Origin: Gemmataceae bacterium
Lineage (GTDB): Bacteria > Planctomycetota > Planctomycetia > Gemmatales > Gemmataceae
DNA: 64,000 bases
Direction of reading: 5' to 3'
Assembly: GCA_901538445.1 (NCBI GenBank)
Contig: LR594584.1
Location: forward strand, 2,885,586 to 2,949,585
Shown: in pieces, positions 11,187 to 18,389 of the stretch
How the letters are laid out: each line of letters starts with the position of its first letter
Position numbering within the stretch: the stretch's first letter is position 1
The notes under the pieces: generated by a model
Told to the model about the DNA's origin: nothing
What the model saw: only the letters and a program-made list of their open reading frames with translations
Database searches by the model: none
Position numbers and translations under genes: made by a program

Positions 11187-12164
11187 TCAGAACCGGATGC
11201 CGGCGGTCATGAGGAGGTTGAAGTTGTGTAGGTTCCCGTTGATCGGGGGAACGAGGTTGGTCCAGTCGTAGCCCCACTCGGTGCGGAGCCCGCCGAACAG
11301 GATCCACGCCCCCATCGGCACCTCGACGGTCGCGTGCGACTCGATGAACACGCCGTGGGTGACGGCCTGCCGCCGCGCGTAGCTCCCGAGCGCCGCCTCG
11401 TCCTGGGGCACGAGGTCCACGTGGGCCGTGCCCCACCGGCCGCCCGCGGTGGTGCCGAACCGGTAGTTCCACCCGTTCTCCAGGCCCGTCAGGCCCGGCC
11501 CCCAGTACCACCAGTCGCGGCCGACGCCGAAGTTGAAGTTGGTCCGGCTCAGGCCGCGGATCGCCAGCGGGGCCACGATGTCCGACCGCGGGATCGTGGT
11601 GTTGCCGAACACCGTGGGGGCGCGGCGGAGTTCCAGTTCCGTGTAGTGCCCGACCGACCCGCGGTTGAACTGGTAGCTCAGGCCGAGGTCGAGCGCCCAG
11701 GCCGCGTCGTGCGCCGGGTTGAAGAACAGGCTCCGGCCGCCGCCGCCGGTCATCCACCCGGTCTGGAGCTGGCGGGCGAACCGCCCCTCGCCGAACGCGA
11801 ACGTCGGGCCGGTGTACGCGTACAGGTCGTACCCGATGCGGCCGTTGCGGCCCATCGGCCCCAGCGCGCCGGGGCCGTCGGTGTAGTACGGGCTCGCGTA
11901 CGCCCCGGGCGGCAGGTTGGGCGGTGCCGGCGGCTGGGCCGACTGGCCCGTCAGCGTACCGAGCGGGTCCGGGGACTGCTCGGACGCCAGCCGGACCGGC
12001 GCGGCGACCCGCTGCACGGCGCTGGCCCCGCCGGTCGGGGCCGGGTCGCCCGTGCCGCCCGGCGGCGGCGGGTACAGGGTCGCCCCGGGCTGGGCGGCGA
12101 CCGGGCCGCCGGTGGCCGCCGCCAGTAGCAACACGCCGCAGAGTCGTCGGGTGTGAATCGTCAT
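11187..12164 (-). CDS. putative outer-membrane beta-barrel protein
   Basis: A 325-residue protein with a Sec signal (MTIHTRRLCGVLLLAAATGG, cleavage near VAAQPG) and a Pro-rich linker over about residues 25-85. The rest contains alternating amphipathic strands rich in Tyr, Trp and Gly, and ends in LLMTAGIRF. A C-terminal phenylalanine on a terminal strand is the classical outer-membrane protein signature. No further family is recognised. The ATG at 12164 has GAGGGG upstream and begins the signal peptide. It is divergent from the 12366 gene, and its promoter must lie in the shared 201-base gap. Confidence 0.7.
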   Translation of the reverse strand: MTIHTRRLCGVLLLAAATGGPVAAQPGATLYPPPPGGTGDPAPTGGASAVQRVAAPVRLASEQSPDPLGTLTGQSAQPPAPPNLPPGAYASPYYTDGPGALGPMGRNGRIGYDLYAYTGPTFAFGEGRFARQLQTGWMTGGGGRSLFFNPAHDAAWALDLGLSYQFNRGSVGHYTELELRRAPTVFGNTTIPRSDIVAPLAIRGLSRTNFNFGVGRDWWYWGPGLTGLENGWNYRFGTTAGGRWGTAHVDLVPQDEAALGSYARRQAVTHGVFIESHATVEVPMGAWILFGGLRTEWGYDWTNLVPPINGNLHNFNLLMTAGIRF

Positions 12165-12300
12165 GCGCCCCTCGCCCGGCCCCGCGCGTTTCCGCCGGCG
12201 GCCGTGAACCGAACGAAACCCCGTCTCGTCCCCTTCTATCGACACCCGACTGTGCCGACTTTACCGCGTGGTCCGGTTGTAGCGTCGGGATTTACCCACT

Positions 12301-12329
12301 TTGGTTCCGGGCCGGGTGGCGGGTATAAA
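12301..12329 (+). promoter_or_regulatory. sigma-70-type promoter for the 12366-15563 unit
   Basis: TTGGTT (12301-12306) and TATAAA (12324-12329) are separated by exactly 17 bases, which is the consensus spacing. The -10 box ends 36 bases before the ATG at 12366. This is one of the clearest promoter-like matches in the window. Confidence 0.6.
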
Positions 12330-12333
12330 CACC

Positions 12334-12351
12334 CTGGGGAACCTGGGGAAC
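12334..12351 (+). promoter_or_regulatory. 9-bp direct repeat at the expected transcription start
   Basis: CTGGGGAAC occurs twice in direct tandem at 12334-12342 and 12343-12351, immediately after the -10 box. Its placement over the expected transcription start makes it a candidate operator for the downstream genes. No regulator gene is adjacent, so this remains inference. Confidence 0.35.
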
Positions 12352-12365
12352 GCAAAGGCGGCACG

Positions 12366-13805
12366 ATGGAAGCGCACGAACTCCGCGACCTCGACACGGC
12401 GAAGCGGTACGTCCTCGAAGGGCTCTGGCTCCAGCGGGCCGTGAAGCCGACGAGCGCCACCGTTCGCCCGACGCTGGAGTGGGCGATGGAGATCGCCTCC
12501 AGCGGCCACCCGCTGCCCCCGGTCGGGTTCGTCGCCGACGTCGGGCACATCGCGTTCGGGGCCGACGCCGAGTACCGGATGAAGGACCCGCTCCACGTCC
12601 CCGGCTGGCCGCCCGCCCTGGCCCGCACCTACGAGGACCACGTCCTCGGCAAGCTGTACGCCGACTGGGTGTTCGAGCGGGCCGGCGACGCGCTCCGCAA
12701 GTTCCAGGGCAAGGACCGGGTGAAGGGCGTCGGGTACGTCATCAACCAGATCCGCGAGCGGGCCAACATGCCCGGCGTCCTCCTGCCCCCGGCCGTGATC
12801 CGCGGGCTCCTCACGTCGAACCCCGACGACGTGCTGTCGTCCGGGTGGGACGCGCTCATGCGCGACGGCCCGTCCGAGTTGCAGGTCAAGCTTTACGAGG
12901 AGCTGGTGAGCGCCGCGCGCCGCACCACCGACGTACTCGCCCGCGAAGACGTGGACGCGCTCGACGACAAGTCGGCGCTCGGCGACATGGGGCAGTACGT
13001 CGCGCTGCGGCAGATCCGCCAGACCACGGCGCGCATCGAGGCGCGGCTCCCGGGCCGGCCGGTGAAGCCGCTCGTCGGCCGCAAGGAGGTGCCCACCCGG
13101 GTGCTCGACGAGGACCAGTACCCCGTCGGCGGATACACGTCGATCTCCAACCGCGGGTCGATCGAGAGCCTGCTCCACTCGCAGCTCGCGTACATAGAGC
13201 CCGAGAGCCCGGACCTGTTCGACGTGAAGTTCGTCCGCGACGAACTGTTCTACTACTCCCGCGACGAGAACCAGTTCCTCCGCCGCCGCCGGGCGTTCGT
13301 CGTCGTGCTGTTCCCGGACCTCGTCACCGCCCGGTTCAAGGACCCCGAGCTGCCGCACCAGCGGATCGTGATGCTGATGTCGTCGGTCCTGGCGCTGTTC
13401 CGGCGGCTGTCGGACTGGCTGAGCACCGACGCGATCCGGTTCGAGGTGCTGTTCGTTCAAGACCCGAGCGGCAAGCGGCCCCTCGCGGAAGAAGCGACCC
13501 TCATGGAGTTGCTGCTCCGCGAGCCGATCGAGCGGGGCGACGGCCTGGTCGCGTGGCTCCCCGACAAGGACGCCGCGGTCGCGCACCTGAACCGGCTGTC
13601 GCGACTGTCGCAGGTCCACTGCCTGGCGGCCGCGACCGAGCCGTTCGAGATGGACCTCGACAACGTGGTCGTCACCGAGGTCGTGGTGGACGGCCCGCGG
13701 CCCGAGGTCGGCACCGGCGACGGCGTTGTCGCCGCGCTGGAGGGCGAGGACGCCCTCGACGTCTGGCAGGAGACCGTCCTGCGCGTCCTGCAACTCTGGG
13801 TGTGA
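12366..13805 (+). CDS. uncharacterised 479-residue protein upstream of an ADP-ribosylglycohydrolase
   Basis: I do not recognise this protein with confidence. It has no signal peptide or membrane segment and looks cytosolic. The N-terminal half is mainly helical. The block GGYTSISNRGSIESLLHSQ at about residues 258-276 leads into RDELFYYSRDENQFLRRRR and then a predicted beta-alpha region (AFVVVLFPDL, followed by IVMLMSSVLALFRRL and FEVLFVQD) like a Rossmann or von Willebrand A fold. I recall similar blocks in accessory proteins of MoxR/vWA or FtsH 'ternary' NTPase systems, but cannot verify that, and no such ATPase is adjacent. It is first in a unit with the ADP-ribosylglycohydrolase, whose start lies 12 bases after its stop. 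Start chosen at the ATG with AAAGGCGG upstream. Confidence 0.6.
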   Translation: MEAHELRDLDTAKRYVLEGLWLQRAVKPTSATVRPTLEWAMEIASSGHPLPPVGFVADVGHIAFGADAEYRMKDPLHVPGWPPALARTYEDHVLGKLYADWVFERAGDALRKFQGKDRVKGVGYVINQIRERANMPGVLLPPAVIRGLLTSNPDDVLSSGWDALMRDGPSELQVKLYEELVSAARRTTDVLAREDVDALDDKSALGDMGQYVALRQIRQTTARIEARLPGRPVKPLVGRKEVPTRVLDEDQYPVGGYTSISNRGSIESLLHSQLAYIEPESPDLFDVKFVRDELFYYSRDENQFLRRRRAFVVVLFPDLVTARFKDPELPHQRIVMLMSSVLALFRRLSDWLSTDAIRFEVLFVQDPSGKRPLAEEATLMELLLREPIERGDGLVAWLPDKDAAVAHLNRLSRLSQVHCLAAATEPFEMDLDNVVVTEVVVDGPRPEVGTGDGVVAALEGEDALDVWQETVLRVLQLWV

Positions 13806-13817
13806 GGCGGTGCCGCG

Positions 13818-14927
13818 ATGAGCCAGTCCGATGCCGTCGCCGGGTGCCTGCTCGGGCTCGCGGTGGGCGACGCCCTCGGCGTCCCGCAAGAGGGTATGTC
13901 GCCGCGGCGGATCGCGCGGCTCTTTCCGGACCTCGACCGGCACCACTTCCTGTTCGGCCGCGGGGTGTTCTCGGACGACACCGAGCACGCCTGCATGACC
14001 GCCCAGGCGCTGCTCGTTTCCGGCGGCGATGTGGCGCGGTTCACGCGGTCGCTCGGCTGGCGGCTCCGATGGTGGTTCGCCGGGGTGCCGGCCGGGATCG
14101 GTCGCGCCACGGTGCGGGCGTGCGTGAAGCTGTGCTGCGGGTTCCCGCCGACCCGCAGCGGCGTGTGGTCGGCCGGGAACGGGCCGGCGATGCGGAGCCC
14201 GGTCCTCGGCGTGCTCTTCGGCGACGACCTCCCGCGGCTCCGCGAGTTCGTGCGGGCGTCCAGTCGCATCACCCACACCGACCCAAAGGCCGAGTGCGGG
14301 GCGCTCGTTGTCGCTTGGGCGGTCCACCGTGCGGCCGCGACGCGAGGCACGGCACCGCCCTCCCCCGCGGCGATCGTCGCTGAGTGTCGCGAGCTGCTCA
14401 GCGGCGAACCCGCGGCCGCCGACCTGCTCGCATCGCTCGACGCGCTCGTCGCGTCGCTCGCAGCGGGTCACTCGGTCGCCGAGTACGCGGCCGCTCTCGG
14501 GTTATCGAAGGGCGTGAGCGGATACATCTACCACACCGTGCCGGTCGCGGTGTACGCCTGGCTGCGGCACCCGGACGACTACCGTGCGGCCGTGCAATCG
14601 GTGATCCGCTGCGGCGGCGACACCGACACGGTCGCGGCCATCGCAGGGGCGGTGGTCGGCGCACGCGTCGGCAAGTCCGGCATTCCCCGCGAGCTACTTG
14701 ACGGCGTTGCCGACTGGCCGCGGTCGGTGCGGTGGGTGCAGCGGCTCGCCGAACGCCTCAACGACACCGACTGGCGCACGACCCCGCAGCGCGCACTGCC
14801 GCTCGCGGTGTGGGCGATCCCGTTCCGCAACCTGGCGTTCTTCGCGTGCGTGCTGGGCCACGTCGCCCGCCGCATGCTCCCGCCGTACTTAGGCAACCAG
14901 CGCCCGCGCCGCATAGACAAGGAGTGA
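13818..14927 (+). CDS. ADP-ribosylglycohydrolase family protein (DraG/ARH type)
   Basis: A 369-residue protein of the ADP-ribosylglycohydrolase family, which uses two magnesium ions to remove ADP-ribose from arginine or other acceptors. The metal-binding motifs look complete: GDALG at 17-21, DDT at 53-55 and GGDTDT with D268 and D270. The last 70 or so residues include a hydrophobic stretch (FRNLAFFACVLGHVARR) that may be a membrane-associated helix not typical of the family. It is coupled to the preceding unknown gene and is followed after three bases by the 14931 gene. No ADP-ribosyltransferase is seen in the window, so the modified target is unknown. Confidence 0.88.
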   Translation: MSQSDAVAGCLLGLAVGDALGVPQEGMSPRRIARLFPDLDRHHFLFGRGVFSDDTEHACMTAQALLVSGGDVARFTRSLGWRLRWWFAGVPAGIGRATVRACVKLCCGFPPTRSGVWSAGNGPAMRSPVLGVLFGDDLPRLREFVRASSRITHTDPKAECGALVVAWAVHRAAATRGTAPPSPAAIVAECRELLSGEPAAADLLASLDALVASLAAGHSVAEYAAALGLSKGVSGYIYHTVPVAVYAWLRHPDDYRAAVQSVIRCGGDTDTVAAIAGAVVGARVGKSGIPRELLDGVADWPRSVRWVQRLAERLNDTDWRTTPQRALPLAVWAIPFRNLAFFACVLGHVARRMLPPYLGNQRPRRIDKE

Positions 14928-14930
14928 GCC

Positions 14931-15563
14931 ATGACCGAACAGGAGTGGATCACGTGCGCCGATCCAGCGCAAATAATCGATTTCCTGAGAGAGAATGGGA
15001 ACGGTCGCAAATTGAGACTGTTCGCTTGTGGTTGCGTCCGTCAAATTTGGCACTTGGTTGAAGTTGGCTCAAGCCGGCATGCAGTTGAAGTGGCAGAGAA
15101 GTTCGCGGACAACGAGGCTTCCGATGCCGACCTCAAGAAGGCATATCTGCGAGCGGCCGCTGAGGTTAAAGACGTGCCTGAGTATGATGTCACACACGCG
15201 GATCCAGCGTGCGCGGTGAGCCGCGAACACTCCTGGGACGCGGCCTATTGTGTCGAGCATATTGTTACAAGTCGCCTGCGGCCTGATTGGAAAGAGAGCC
15301 GCCAGATTCACAGCTCAATGCTGAGAGATATTTTCGGCAACCCGTTTCGCCCGGTCGTGTTCACCCCGGAGTGGCGCACCTGCACCGCAGTTGCCCTCGC
15401 CCAACTGATGTACGAGTCGCGCGACTTCTCCCCGATGCCGATTCTGGCCGACGCACTTCAGGACGCGGGGTGCGCCAACGACGACATCCTGAACCATTGC
15501 CGCGGGCCGGGGCCGCACGTCCGCGGGTGCTGGGTCGTCGATCTCGTTCTCGGGAAGGTGTGA
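14931..15563 (+). CDS. small hypothetical protein of a Gemmata-type family
   Basis: A 210-residue cytosolic protein that begins MTEQEWITCADPAQIIDFL and contains GRKLRLFACGCVRQIWHLV and, near the C-terminus, RDIFGNPFRPVVFTP and GPHVRGCWVVDLVLGK. These blocks recall a paralogous family that I associate with Gemmata genomes; no function is known to me. The first 400 bases are near 50-60% G+C with different codon use, while the last third is as GC-rich as its neighbours. It starts three bases after the ADP-ribosylglycohydrolase stop, so it is translated from the same message. A large palindrome follows its stop. Confidence 0.7.
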   Translation: MTEQEWITCADPAQIIDFLRENGNGRKLRLFACGCVRQIWHLVEVGSSRHAVEVAEKFADNEASDADLKKAYLRAAAEVKDVPEYDVTHADPACAVSREHSWDAAYCVEHIVTSRLRPDWKESRQIHSSMLRDIFGNPFRPVVFTPEWRTCTAVALAQLMYESRDFSPMPILADALQDAGCANDDILNHCRGPGPHVRGCWVVDLVLGKV

Positions 15564-15565
15564 TG

Positions 15566-15642
15566 CTTTCGAGCCACGGGGCTTGTCCCCGTGGTGCCTG
15601 GAACCGCGGAAGACCACGGGGACAAGCCCCGTGGCTCGAAAG
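15566..15642. repeat. perfect 30-bp inverted repeat
   Basis: Positions 15566-15595 are the exact reverse complement of 15613-15642, with a 17-base loop. The left arm begins three bases after the stop codon of the 14931 gene. The core CCACGGGGC/TTGTCCCCGTGG is itself partly palindromic. There is no T-run. It most likely belongs to a dispersed palindromic repeat family and would form a strong hairpin at the transcript end. Confidence 0.85.
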
Positions 15643-15765: not shown

Positions 15766-16905
15766 ATGGGACTCGGCAGTTGGATCGGCGGACAGTTCAT
15801 CGACATCATCGAGTGGACCGAGCCCAGCCAGAACGAGATCCTGGCCCACCGGTTCACCCGCCACAAGAACGAGATAAAGAACGGGGCCAAGCTCATCGTC
15901 CGCGAGGGGCAGGCGGCCGGGTTCGTCAAGGAGGGCCAACTCGCCGACGTCAAGCTGCCGGGCATGTACACGCTCGACACCAAGAACATGCCGATCCTGT
16001 CCACCATCCTCGGGTGGAAGTACGGGTTCGAGTCGCCGTTCAAGTGCGAAGTCTACTTCATCGCCACCCGCCAGTGGACCGACCAGAAGTGGGGCACGCA
16101 GAACCCGGTCATGTACCGCGACCCGGAGTTCGGGCCGGTGCGGTTGCGGGCGTTCGGCAACTACGCCTTCAAGATCACCGACCCGGCGACGTTCCTGAAG
16201 GAACTCGTCGCCACCGACCCGTCGTTCGAGCTGTACGAGATCTCCGCCCAGTTCCGCAACGTCATCGTGTCGCGGTTCATCGACGCCCTCGGCGGCGCGA
16301 AGATCCCGATGCTCGACCTCGCCGGGAACTACGAGAAGGTCAGCAACCTCGCCAAGGAGCGGATCACCCCCGAACTCGCGAAGATGGGCGTGTCGCTCAC
16401 GCAGTTCTTCGTCGAGAACATCTCGCTCCCGCCCGAGGTCGAGGCGGCGCTCGACAAGCGGTCGCAGATGTCGGTGCTCGGCAACCTCGACCAGTACGCG
16501 AAGCTCCAGACGGCCGACGCGATCCGCGACGCGGCACAGAACCCCGGCGGGCTCGCGGGCCTTGGCGCGAACCTCGGAGCGGGTGTCGCGATCGGCAACG
16601 CGATGGGCGGCGCGTTCGCGGGTGCGGGCTCTGCCCCCGGCGTCGTCACTCCTGCAAACACCACCTCCCCGGCAGCAGCGGCCGGCCCGCCCCCGCTGCC
16701 CACGGCGGTCGCGTTCCACGCCTCGATCGACGGCGTCGCGTCCGGCCCGTTCGACATGGCCGCGCTGCACCAGCACGTCCGCAACGGCAAGGTCACGCGC
16801 GCCACGCTCGTCTGGAAGAGCGGCATGGCCGGGTGGGCGGCCGCGCAGACGGTGCCGGAACTCAACGCGCTGTTCGCCGACGTGCCGCCCCCTCTGCCGA
16901 TGTAG
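15766..16905 (+). CDS. SPFH-domain protein with C-terminal GYF-type domain (YdjI-like)
   Basis: A 379-residue protein. Residues 1-270 match the SPFH group often annotated as virion core protein-like or YdjI-like: IEWTEPSQNEILAHRF, GQAAGFVKEGQLADVKLPG, LGWKYGFESPF and MGVSLTQFFVENISLPPEV. A linker rich in Ala, Gly and Pro follows, and residues 315-370 form a GYF-like domain (HASIDGVASGPFDMAALHQHV, TLVWKSGMAGWAAA). SPFH proteins scaffold membranes; in Bacillus the related YdjI acts in a membrane stress system. The next gene is a zinc-ribbon membrane protein of the YdjH kind, the expected partner. The ATG at 15766 matches the family N-terminus. Confidence 0.85.
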   Translation: MGLGSWIGGQFIDIIEWTEPSQNEILAHRFTRHKNEIKNGAKLIVREGQAAGFVKEGQLADVKLPGMYTLDTKNMPILSTILGWKYGFESPFKCEVYFIATRQWTDQKWGTQNPVMYRDPEFGPVRLRAFGNYAFKITDPATFLKELVATDPSFELYEISAQFRNVIVSRFIDALGGAKIPMLDLAGNYEKVSNLAKERITPELAKMGVSLTQFFVENISLPPEVEAALDKRSQMSVLGNLDQYAKLQTADAIRDAAQNPGGLAGLGANLGAGVAIGNAMGGAFAGAGSAPGVVTPANTTSPAAAAGPPPLPTAVAFHASIDGVASGPFDMAALHQHVRNGKVTRATLVWKSGMAGWAAAQTVPELNALFADVPPPLPM

Positions 16906-17009: not shown

Positions 17010-18389
17010 ATGGACGCCCCGCCCCCCCTGCCCACCCCGAACGCGCCCGCGGAGACGCGCGAGCCGTCGCTCTCGAAGGCCCCGCCCGCAGGGAAGCTGT
17101 TCCCGTGCCTGAAGTGCGGGGCGAAGGTCGAGTTCGACCCGCGGACCCGCTCGCTGAAGTGCCCGTACTGCGGCCACGAGAGCACCCTCGCGGCGGCCGG
17201 CGAGGCCGACGCGGTCGTCGAGCGTGACTTCGACGAGTACGCGGCCAGGCTCGCCAGCGGCCCGCCCATCGAGGGCCGGTCGTCGCAGGTCCGCTGCACC
17301 GGGTGCGGCGCGACGGTGTTGCTCGAAGACAAGGTCGTCACCGAGAAGTGCCCGTTCTGCAGCACCCACCTGGAGAACCAGCCCGAGGCCGCCGCGGGGA
17401 TGATCCCGCCGGAATCCCTGGTGCCGTTCGGGGTGGACCTCCGCGCCGCCCGCGAGGCGTTCGACGGCTGGCTCAAGGGGCTGTGGTTCGCGCCCAACGA
17501 GCTGAAGAAGGTCGCCAACCTCGGCCAACTCGCCGGCGTGTACGTCCCGTACTGGACCTACGACGCGATGACGTACACCGGGTACTCCGGCATGCGGGGC
17601 GACGACTACACCGAGACCGAGACGTACACCGAGAAGGACGCGCAGGGGAACAACGTCACCAAGACCCGTACCGTGACGAGGACGCTGTGGTATCCGGTTT
17701 CGGGCGAGGTGCAGCACTTCTTCGACGACGTGCTGGTGTGCGGGTCGAAGAGCGTGCCGGGCCACCTGGTCCGCGGCATGGAGCCGTGGGAACTGAGCGA
17801 GCTGGAGCCGTTCCGGGCGGAGTTCCTCGCCGGGCTCAAGACCGAGCGGTACGCAGTGGACTTGACGGAGGGGCTCGGCGTCGCCAAGCACATGATGGAG
17901 CCGACCATCGACCAGCTCATCCGCCGCGACATCGGTGGCGACCACCAGCGGATCATCGACAAGTCGACGCAGTACCTCGGCATCACCTTCAAGCACTGCC
18001 TGCTGCCGGTGTGGGTCGCGAACTACCGCTACCACGAGAAGCTGTTCCAGATCCTCGTGAACGGCCGCTCGGGCAAGGTGTCCGGGGAGCGGCCCTACAG
18101 TTGGTCGAAGATCCTGGCGCTGGTCGCACTCATCGCGCTCGTCGTCGGCGGGATCATCGCGACGGTCATGGCCCTCAAGAAGCCGCCGGGTGTCGCGCAC
18201 CAGCCGCAGCGGCAGTCACGGCGACAGGCGGTCCCGCACCCAGGCCGCCGGCGGCGCGAGGGTGAACCGAACGCGGTCGTGCAGGCGGCTCGGGCGGCCC
18301 TGCCAGAACTCGAACACCCGCGGCACCACGCGGTACCCGCCCCAGTTGGGCGGCCGCGGCACCGCACCGTCCGGGTACTGCGCGACTAG
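17010..18389 (+). CDS. zinc-ribbon membrane protein (YdjH-like), 3' end running into pdxH antisense
   Basis: A 459-residue protein. Four-cysteine zinc ribbons lie at residues 33-53 (CLKCG, CPYCG) and 94-118 (CTGCG, CPFC). The middle holds the family blocks [18 protein letters not shown] and [15 protein letters not shown] single transmembrane helix ([22 protein letters not shown]) lies at about residues 370-391. Homologues normally end soon after this helix; here about 65 further Arg/Pro-rich residues are read because no stop occurs until 18389, so the gene overlaps the 3' end of pdxH by 174 bases. The tail is probably not conserved. It is the likely partner of the SPFH protein upstream and lacks a Shine-Dalgarno. 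Confidence 0.8.

Follow-up and report, generated by a model that had tools for sequence, protein, structure and literature searches.

A 479-residue protein encoded at 12366..13805 on the + strand of a 64,000-nucleotide stretch of Gemmataceae DNA (the window; contig LR594584.1, positions 2,885,586 to 2,949,585) is assigned from its sequence as ivWA, the predicted vWA co-chaperone subunit of an FtsH ternary system of the simpler type. According to the main text of Kaur et al. (2020, eLife, PMC7159879), from whose FtsH ternary systems the Pfam ivWA names derive, such systems are sets of MoxR, vWA and FtsH proteins and are predicted, on the strength of genome context, to act in conflict (immunity); the simpler type carries its vWA domain after a large all-helical domain, and its effectors, a radical SAM enzyme among them, are encoded by neighbouring standalone genes (section 21 of that paper). 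The genome to which the window belongs (G000, a 7.86-Mb assembly of 4 contigs) carries the other parts of such a system scattered yet co-inherited, which is new; no paper on dispersed or on Gemmata FtsH ternary systems was found in the open-access literature. It is probable that ivWA is a subunit, acting in trans, of an FtsH ternary system that has been scattered over the chromosome in Gemmataceae, and that the ADP-ribosylglycohydrolase (ARG) encoded directly behind it lies outside this machine.

Two Pfam families together span almost the whole length of the protein, both far over their cut-offs: PF19996 (ivWA-helical_N, residues 11-234, 1.5e-29) and PF19997 (ivWA, residues 253-478, 6.7e-47). 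An earlier sequence-only reading of the window had called the protein unrecognised, which is wrong given these two matches; its hint at MoxR, vWA and FtsH as genes worth looking for proved correct. A profile search and a structure prediction had been suggested by the same reading; the former returned PF19996 and PF19997, and the latter, followed by fold comparison, returned Rossmann-type matches with no clear winner. The AlphaFold2 model, built from 48 sequences, has a mean predicted local distance difference test score (pLDDT) of 85.7 and consists of a helical N-domain and a C-terminal alpha/beta domain; with the Pfam matches this gives a large all-helical N-domain followed by a divergent vWA domain. 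The best fold match is malonyl-CoA reductase (Z 9.0) in a comparison that barely probes the N-terminal helical part. Because the fold comparison ties vWA entries with unrelated ones, the vWA assignment rests on the Pfam profile. The MIDAS (metal-ion-dependent adhesion site) motif DxSxS, expected where the first strand ends, is not kept, and FVVVLFPDLV (residues 311-320) stands in its place; an Asp at the MIDAS position is common in near relatives and replaced in several (PEL, PSL, DYI), and the serines are absent. Loss of the MIDAS aspartates by some members of the ivWA class is described in the main text of PMC7159879. The alignment behind these comparisons retains 48 of 59 rows after removal of partial, duplicate, overlong and weak ones, and the matches in G045 and G046, which cover only the linker discussed below, are not counted as ivWA. 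A profile of this alignment found no PDB sequence at E 1, and PADLOC gave no match for ivWA or for the two proteins encoded behind it. ivWA is uncommon in the phylum: of 294 genomes sampled, 14 exceed the cut-off and 16 match at E 0.001, the window genome included.

The remaining components are encoded far from ivWA. A bpMoxR gene with the P-loop GPPGTAKS, of the GxxxTAKS form, is found at G000:C3:333501-334532 (L173:8502-9533; PF20030, 1.6e-61), and about 20 kb away an FtsH operon (L237, C3 ~308.8-317.6 kb) supplies the accessory components in the order radical SAM-fvmX6-fvmX5-FtsH-fvmX3-analog-fvmX7, with Pfam matches to fvmX6 (4.7e-156), fvmX5 (3.5e-86), the fvmX3-analog (8.4e-36) and fvmX7 (1.2e-124). 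The FtsH of ternary systems has an inactive N-terminal and an active second AAA domain; in the FtsH of this operon the AAA and M41 domains are matched, and in the 290 residues ahead of them Pfam finds no AAA domain. The window genome thus shares with the simpler FtsH ternary system (main text of PMC7159879) an ivWA with helical N-domain, a GxxxTAKS MoxR, FtsH, radical SAM and fvmX3-analog, 5, 6 and 7, and differs from it in that the genes are dispersed, are co-inherited across a bacterial family, and include an ivWA with its own promoter. A distance of 2.56 Mb separates ivWA from bpMoxR and one of 2.58 Mb separates it from FtsH, so vWA and MoxR do not cluster with FtsH here, whereas they do in G049. 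In that genome, which is of another family, FtsH-92 aa-fvmX7-bpMoxR-ivWA are contiguous, and it alone has the whole cluster among 22 genomes compared. In the distant genome G161 the order is FtsH-916 aa-bpMoxR-ivWA, and a radical SAM gene is nearby; bpMoxR adjoins ivWA in G031, and fvmX7 and bpMoxR are near neighbours in G034. At 13 distant ivWA loci searched by tblastn, a MoxR gene precedes ivWA on the same strand by at most 262 nt in eight and lies 2 kb upstream in a ninth, with none on the stretch examined in the other four. Six genomes have the genes on one contig (G000, G002, G008, G016, G019 and G026), and there the distance of ivWA to bpMoxR runs from 44 kb to 2.6 Mb and that to FtsH or fvmX7 from 35 kb to 2.6 Mb. 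Together, these arrangements argue for an operon that has come apart further in some genomes than in others.

The scattered genes are inherited as a set. Of the 59 relatives, 48 have a completeness of 90% or more and a contamination of 5% or less (the good genomes); 27 of these carry both ivWA and fvmX7, and the other 21 carry neither. A bpMoxR in a class of 196-218 bits is present in 26 of these 27, G003 having a partial match, and is missing from all 21. An FtsH whose N-terminus is of the ternary type, looked for in 41 genomes, is found in all 19 good genomes with ivWA (twice in two pieces) and in 0 of 14 without it. Across all 59 relatives, G015 (68% complete) and G018 (65%) lack ivWA yet have fvmX7 and bpMoxR. 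The informative contrasts are the same-family genera represented by G021, G032 and G036, which are without any part (FtsH having been searched in G021 only of these), and G049, which has all parts. Distance matrices of ivWA and bpMoxR correlate over 18 genomes (r 0.93, with 0 of 5000 permutations as high), and the two trees are broadly congruent within the genus, with several forks open. G049 groups with G031 and G034 in these trees, which may reflect transfer between families. ivWA changes ~3.5 times faster than bpMoxR (median end branch 0.33 versus 0.095). Parts that are scattered yet co-inherited provide a natural test of which components belong together.

A conserved linker of ivWA (residues 253-274; 13122..13187, + strand), which contains GGYTSISNRGSIESLLHSQ, is proposed as a docking segment for the TAKS-type class of MoxR on the basis of the alignment, the model and its sharing with beta-propeller vWA proteins. 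The stretch that the sequence-only reading had singled out falls inside it. Invariant positions in the 48-row alignment are P253, G255, G256 and G264, as well as L269 and L274, and residues 239-276 are modelled at pLDDT <50 despite this conservation. Twelve weak ivWA matches cover residues 214-316 only; all 12 regions were examined, and the linker was re-found by tblastn in seven, in proteins of 907-1069 aa, and by motif pattern in eight, the initial weak match being the evidence for the others. Five of the linker-bearing proteins were scanned, and each resembles bpX0 or bpX1 of beta-propeller ternary systems, with three exceeding a cut-off; a TAKS-type MoxR P-loop is present in 11 of the 12 regions. 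A TAKS-type MoxR and a GGYxDVTNRG-like linker are thus common to the window genome and to the MoxR-vWA-beta-propeller ternary system (bpX0, bpX1; main text of PMC7159879), from which the window ivWA differs in having no bpX domain in Pfam. A linker motif common to FtsH-type and beta-propeller ternary systems is new. In the mechanism we propose, the AAA+ protein bpMoxR would form a ring that docks on ivWA via the conserved GGYTSISNRG linker and, driven by ATP, remodels whatever the ivWA domain has bound, and the AAA-M41 protease FtsH, with fvmX3/5/6/7 and the radical SAM enzyme of the operon, would act on the product. Mutation of this short motif should uncouple the vWA protein from the MoxR motor.

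ivWA also has a conserved promoter-like element of its own, TTTGG-N19-TATAAA at 12300..12329 (+ strand), which the sequence-only reading had given as TTGGTT-17-TATAAA with consensus spacing. Its support comes from conservation; a generic sigma-70 scan that requires 9 or more of 12 positions to match misses it. Exact TTTGG-N19-TATAA stands upstream of ivWA in 15 of 17 same-genus genomes, with TTTGG 63-79 nt and TATAA 39-55 nt ahead of the start codon, and at 18 of 45 loci the 130 nt upstream of ivWA contain TTTGG-N17-21-TATAA, where mononucleotide shuffles predict 0.007, one of the 18 differing in spacing and place. The surroundings of the element are hardly alignable (13 loci), and TTTGG-N18-20-TATAAR occurs a single time in the whole window genome. 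A promoter shared by the dispersed parts was considered and rejected: at 17 bpMoxR loci and four FtsH-operon loci, the 250 nt ahead of bpMoxR and of the called operon genes, respectively, lack the motif. The tandem 9-bp repeat noted earlier is indeed present, as two copies of CCTGGGGAA at 12333..12350 (+ strand); it is not conserved among relatives, an operator role is rejected on that ground, and it is probably without meaning.

Three tightly packed genes had been described behind this promoter, and they are confirmed at 12366-13805, 13818-14927 (after a gap of 12 bases) and 14931-15563 (after 3 bases). The three-gene unit, made up of ivWA, ARG and the small protein of the third gene, is a composite of three histories. 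The second gene (13818..14927, + strand) encodes an ARG of 369 aa that matches PF03747 (1.8e-67; 228.5 bits against a cut-off of 26.2) with paired metal Asp motifs. Its metal site is complete, as had been stated: SDDTE (D53, D54) and GGDTDT (D268, D270), as in DraG and MJ1187. The PF03747 membership and the DDT and GGDxDT motifs are a likeness to the DraG, ARH3 and Tri1 ADP-ribosylhydrolases; unlike the DraG and Tri1 equivalogs, it stays under both cut-offs, with 83.3 of 337.05 bits for DraG (TIGR02662) and 48.2 of 490 bits for the Tri1 immunity hydrolase (NF041672). Two ARG paralogues are found elsewhere in the window genome. The absence of an ADP-ribosyltransferase, which the sequence-only reading had stated, is not established, since no search aimed at one was made.

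The earlier description of a unit coupling the 479-residue protein to ARG holds, as adjacency, for the window and the two relatives closest to it (L034, L035) and fails at the other 50 of 53 ivWA loci, a count drawn from 58 by omitting five with less than 1.5 kb downstream, duplicates between contig-derived and whole-genome loci having been removed where noticed, not exhaustively. A conserved ivWA-ARG operon is ruled out by these 3 of 53 loci. Other genes follow ivWA elsewhere, for example ABC transporter genes, with an ABC-2 type gene at 13 of 36 loci. ARG itself keeps different company, namely a gene for an SPFH/Band_7_1 and GYF_2 protein (15766..16905, + strand; PF13421, 1.4e-91) and a gene for a zinc-ribbon-like protein (17010..18389, + strand; CxxC...CxxC, no Pfam family over cut-off). 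At 16 ARG loci, comprising 13 chosen among the best genome-search matches plus the window, L034 and L035, the SPFH gene adjoins ARG in nine (window, L034, L035, L130-L133, L142 and L135, the last with a divergent SPFH), the zinc-ribbon gene follows in seven, and no SPFH gene was found in seven; the window and L130 have genes of the P0003 type, described below, between ARG and SPFH. A TatC gene lies near the module in L142 (by Pfam) and in L130-L132 and L135 (by eye). Since the ARG adjacency is limited to three loci and the SPFH and zinc-ribbon linkage is found elsewhere, the ARG-SPFH-zinc ribbon module probably reached its place behind ivWA in an ancestor of three close species. ARG is probably a recent arrival whose gene set is not that of the FtsH ternary machine, and it is now probably transcribed from the ivWA promoter. 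It would stand outside the machine, with the downstream SPFH and zinc-ribbon genes as its partners. An SPFH gene beside a zinc-ribbon gene also recalls Bacillus subtilis, where YdjI presumably belongs to PF13421 and YdjG presumably carries a zinc ribbon. By analogy with B. subtilis, where YdjI-YdjG/H tie PspA to the membrane according to PMC8581546, a likeness taken from the SPFH Pfam match and that description, the module is perhaps one of membrane stress; it differs from the YdjI-YdjG/H-PspA genes in including an ADP-ribosylglycohydrolase. No paper on an ARG-SPFH-zinc ribbon linkage was found in the open-access literature. As a weak lead, an SPFH gene like that of the window stands directly before bpMoxR in G028 (L180:6297-9000), at 1 of 18 bpMoxR loci, which ties SPFH to genes of the ternary system a second time.

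The third gene (14931..15563, + strand) encodes P0003, an all-helical protein of 210 aa belonging to a high-copy, nearly genus-restricted family. The sequence-only reading had listed it as the third of the packed genes. In the two nearest relatives the ARG-SPFH gap of ~120 bases is without P0003, and ARG, which ends in PPY in all seven relatives examined, reads 11 codons further in the window, so that P0003 is a later insertion between ARG and SPFH. P0003 has 72 partial or full matches in the window genome, and many genomes of the genus hold dozens of dispersed copies; at E 1e-20 the genomes of the genus carry from 0 to at least 75 copies, two other genera of the family give 5 and 2 matches, and none is found in the 16 outside-family genomes among 41 searched. 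Neighbourhoods were taken at 30 of the 72 loci, with 28 of 30 rows aligned and the window copy standing for L094; the C-terminus is conserved (GNPFRPV...HVRGCWVVDLVLGK), and 20 of the 30 copies begin at most 50 nt after the end of an upstream open reading frame (mechanical frames of at least 100 aa). Searches with P0003 itself found nothing at E 1 in Pfam or PADLOC and a single meaningless match in NCBIfam (0.092), and the 28 family members give one match each to Imm5_like (0.0026) and DUF7386 (0.0043) in Pfam and none in NCBIfam. The P0003 model is all-helical (pLDDT 84.1); its residues 1-135 match 7jtu_B, from a type VI secretion (T6S) deaminase toxin entry, at Z 10.6 (3.1 A, 132 aligned), and it matches 3f7c, a DUF416 protein, at Z 9.1, the next row being at 4.9. 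We take chain B of 7jtu to be the immunity protein of the toxin. In G002 (L130) two P0003-like genes occupy the same ARG-SPFH gap, which is empty in closer relatives. The gap thus appears to be a repeatedly used site. Nothing relevant was found in the open-access literature on gene family expansion.

Several observations weigh against assigning ivWA to a dispersed FtsH ternary system. In the fold comparison, vWA entries (BatB, CMG2 and a TFIIH subunit, presumably p34) reach Z ~8, which is tied with unrelated folds and unspecific, and Foldseek gave no match under E 0.001 with the ivWA model. Most assemblies are drafts, so that dispersal rests on the six same-contig genomes. The border of the 196-218-bit bpMoxR class was set after the scores were known, and G003, G007, G029 and G033 carry ivWA without a match in that class, G007 being also without ternary-type FtsH. 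Nearly all positives are of one family, so the co-occurrence counts are not phylogenetically independent and Fisher values overstate independence. The bpMoxR and FtsH-operon genes lack the ivWA promoter motif, and the physical association, the ring, the docking role and the substrate are things we only infer. Finally, in G000 and its two nearest relatives bpMoxR adjoins another vWA gene (DATGS) together with kinase and phosphoesterase genes, and these could provide its partner instead of ivWA. ivWA might accordingly have lost its MoxR partner after dispersal and taken on a private function in this family, with bpMoxR serving the adjacent canonical vWA-kinase-phosphoesterase genes in the clade of the window, an alternative that is consistent with the canonical-looking motif of that vWA gene in G000, G005 and G009, with an ivWA promoter that is conserved, private and not common to bpMoxR, and with the faster evolution of ivWA. 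It is considered unlikely, since the vWA-kinase cluster is found at 3 of 17 bpMoxR loci called, ivWA and bpMoxR are co-inherited, and the linker motif is kept.

Two other alternatives give ARG a larger part. ARG could be a newly recruited effector or antidote that, in a functional operon with ivWA in this clade, removes ADP-ribose from a target presented by ivWA; the 12-base spacing behind one promoter, the close ARG in L034 and L035, and the adjacent standalone effectors of simple FtsH systems (section 21 of PMC7159879) would fit, whereas the restriction to three loci and the occurrence of ARG orthologues away from ivWA, often with SPFH and zinc ribbon, make this improbable, and the main text of PMC7159879 does not contain "ADP-ribosylglycohydrolase" and has "glycohydrolase" once. 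It is quite doubtful that ARG, as a Tri1-like enzyme directed against ADP-ribosylating toxins, and P0003, with an immunity-like helical fold, are orphan immunity genes gathered behind a promoted gene. The match of ARG to Tri1 (NF041672, 6.4e-13), the Imm5_like match of 1 of 28 P0003 members, the 7jtu_B and DUF416 fold matches, and the two P0003-like genes of G002 point that way; against them, ARG is far under the Tri1 cut-off, chance can give mostly helical models such Z values and Foldseek with the P0003 model found nothing under E 0.001 (E 0.49), the Imm5_like match is single and weak with DUF7386 matched as weakly by another member, and the ARG-SPFH-zinc ribbon linkage is better conserved. 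Membership of ivWA in the dispersed FtsH ternary system remains the preferred reading. More tentatively, this system may now be a core cellular machine in this planctomycete family, with the GGYxSISNRG linker as docking peptide for TAKS-type MoxR rings; one ivWA per genome, vertical inheritance, the removal of ivWA and MoxR from the operon and a private, genus-wide ivWA promoter would be unlike a mobile defence island, and dispersal with co-inheritance argues for a core function in this lineage.

Some minor features accompany these genes. The vWA gene with DATGS, the protein kinase gene and the calcineurin-like phosphoesterase gene adjoin bpMoxR within L173:4573-9533 (G000:C3 ~329.6-334.5 kb), and at L238:3103-6540 and L239:4215-5711 G000 encodes one more fvmX7 protein, which is divergent, and one more FtsH-like protein, in which Pfam finds no M41 domain. 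A 325-aa protein without a Pfam family at E 0.01 is encoded divergently from ivWA (11187..12164, - strand); it stands opposite ivWA at 28 of 38 loci and is a more constant neighbour than the downstream ABC transporter genes. Behind P0003 lies a perfect 30-bp inverted repeat with a 17-nt loop (15566..15642), whose first base is the third past the stop codon. The window genome has 16 occurrences of a 24-nt stretch of its arm, and 4 of the 30 P0003 copies, that of the window included, are followed by this hairpin or a close variant, which in two of them starts at the third base past the stop.

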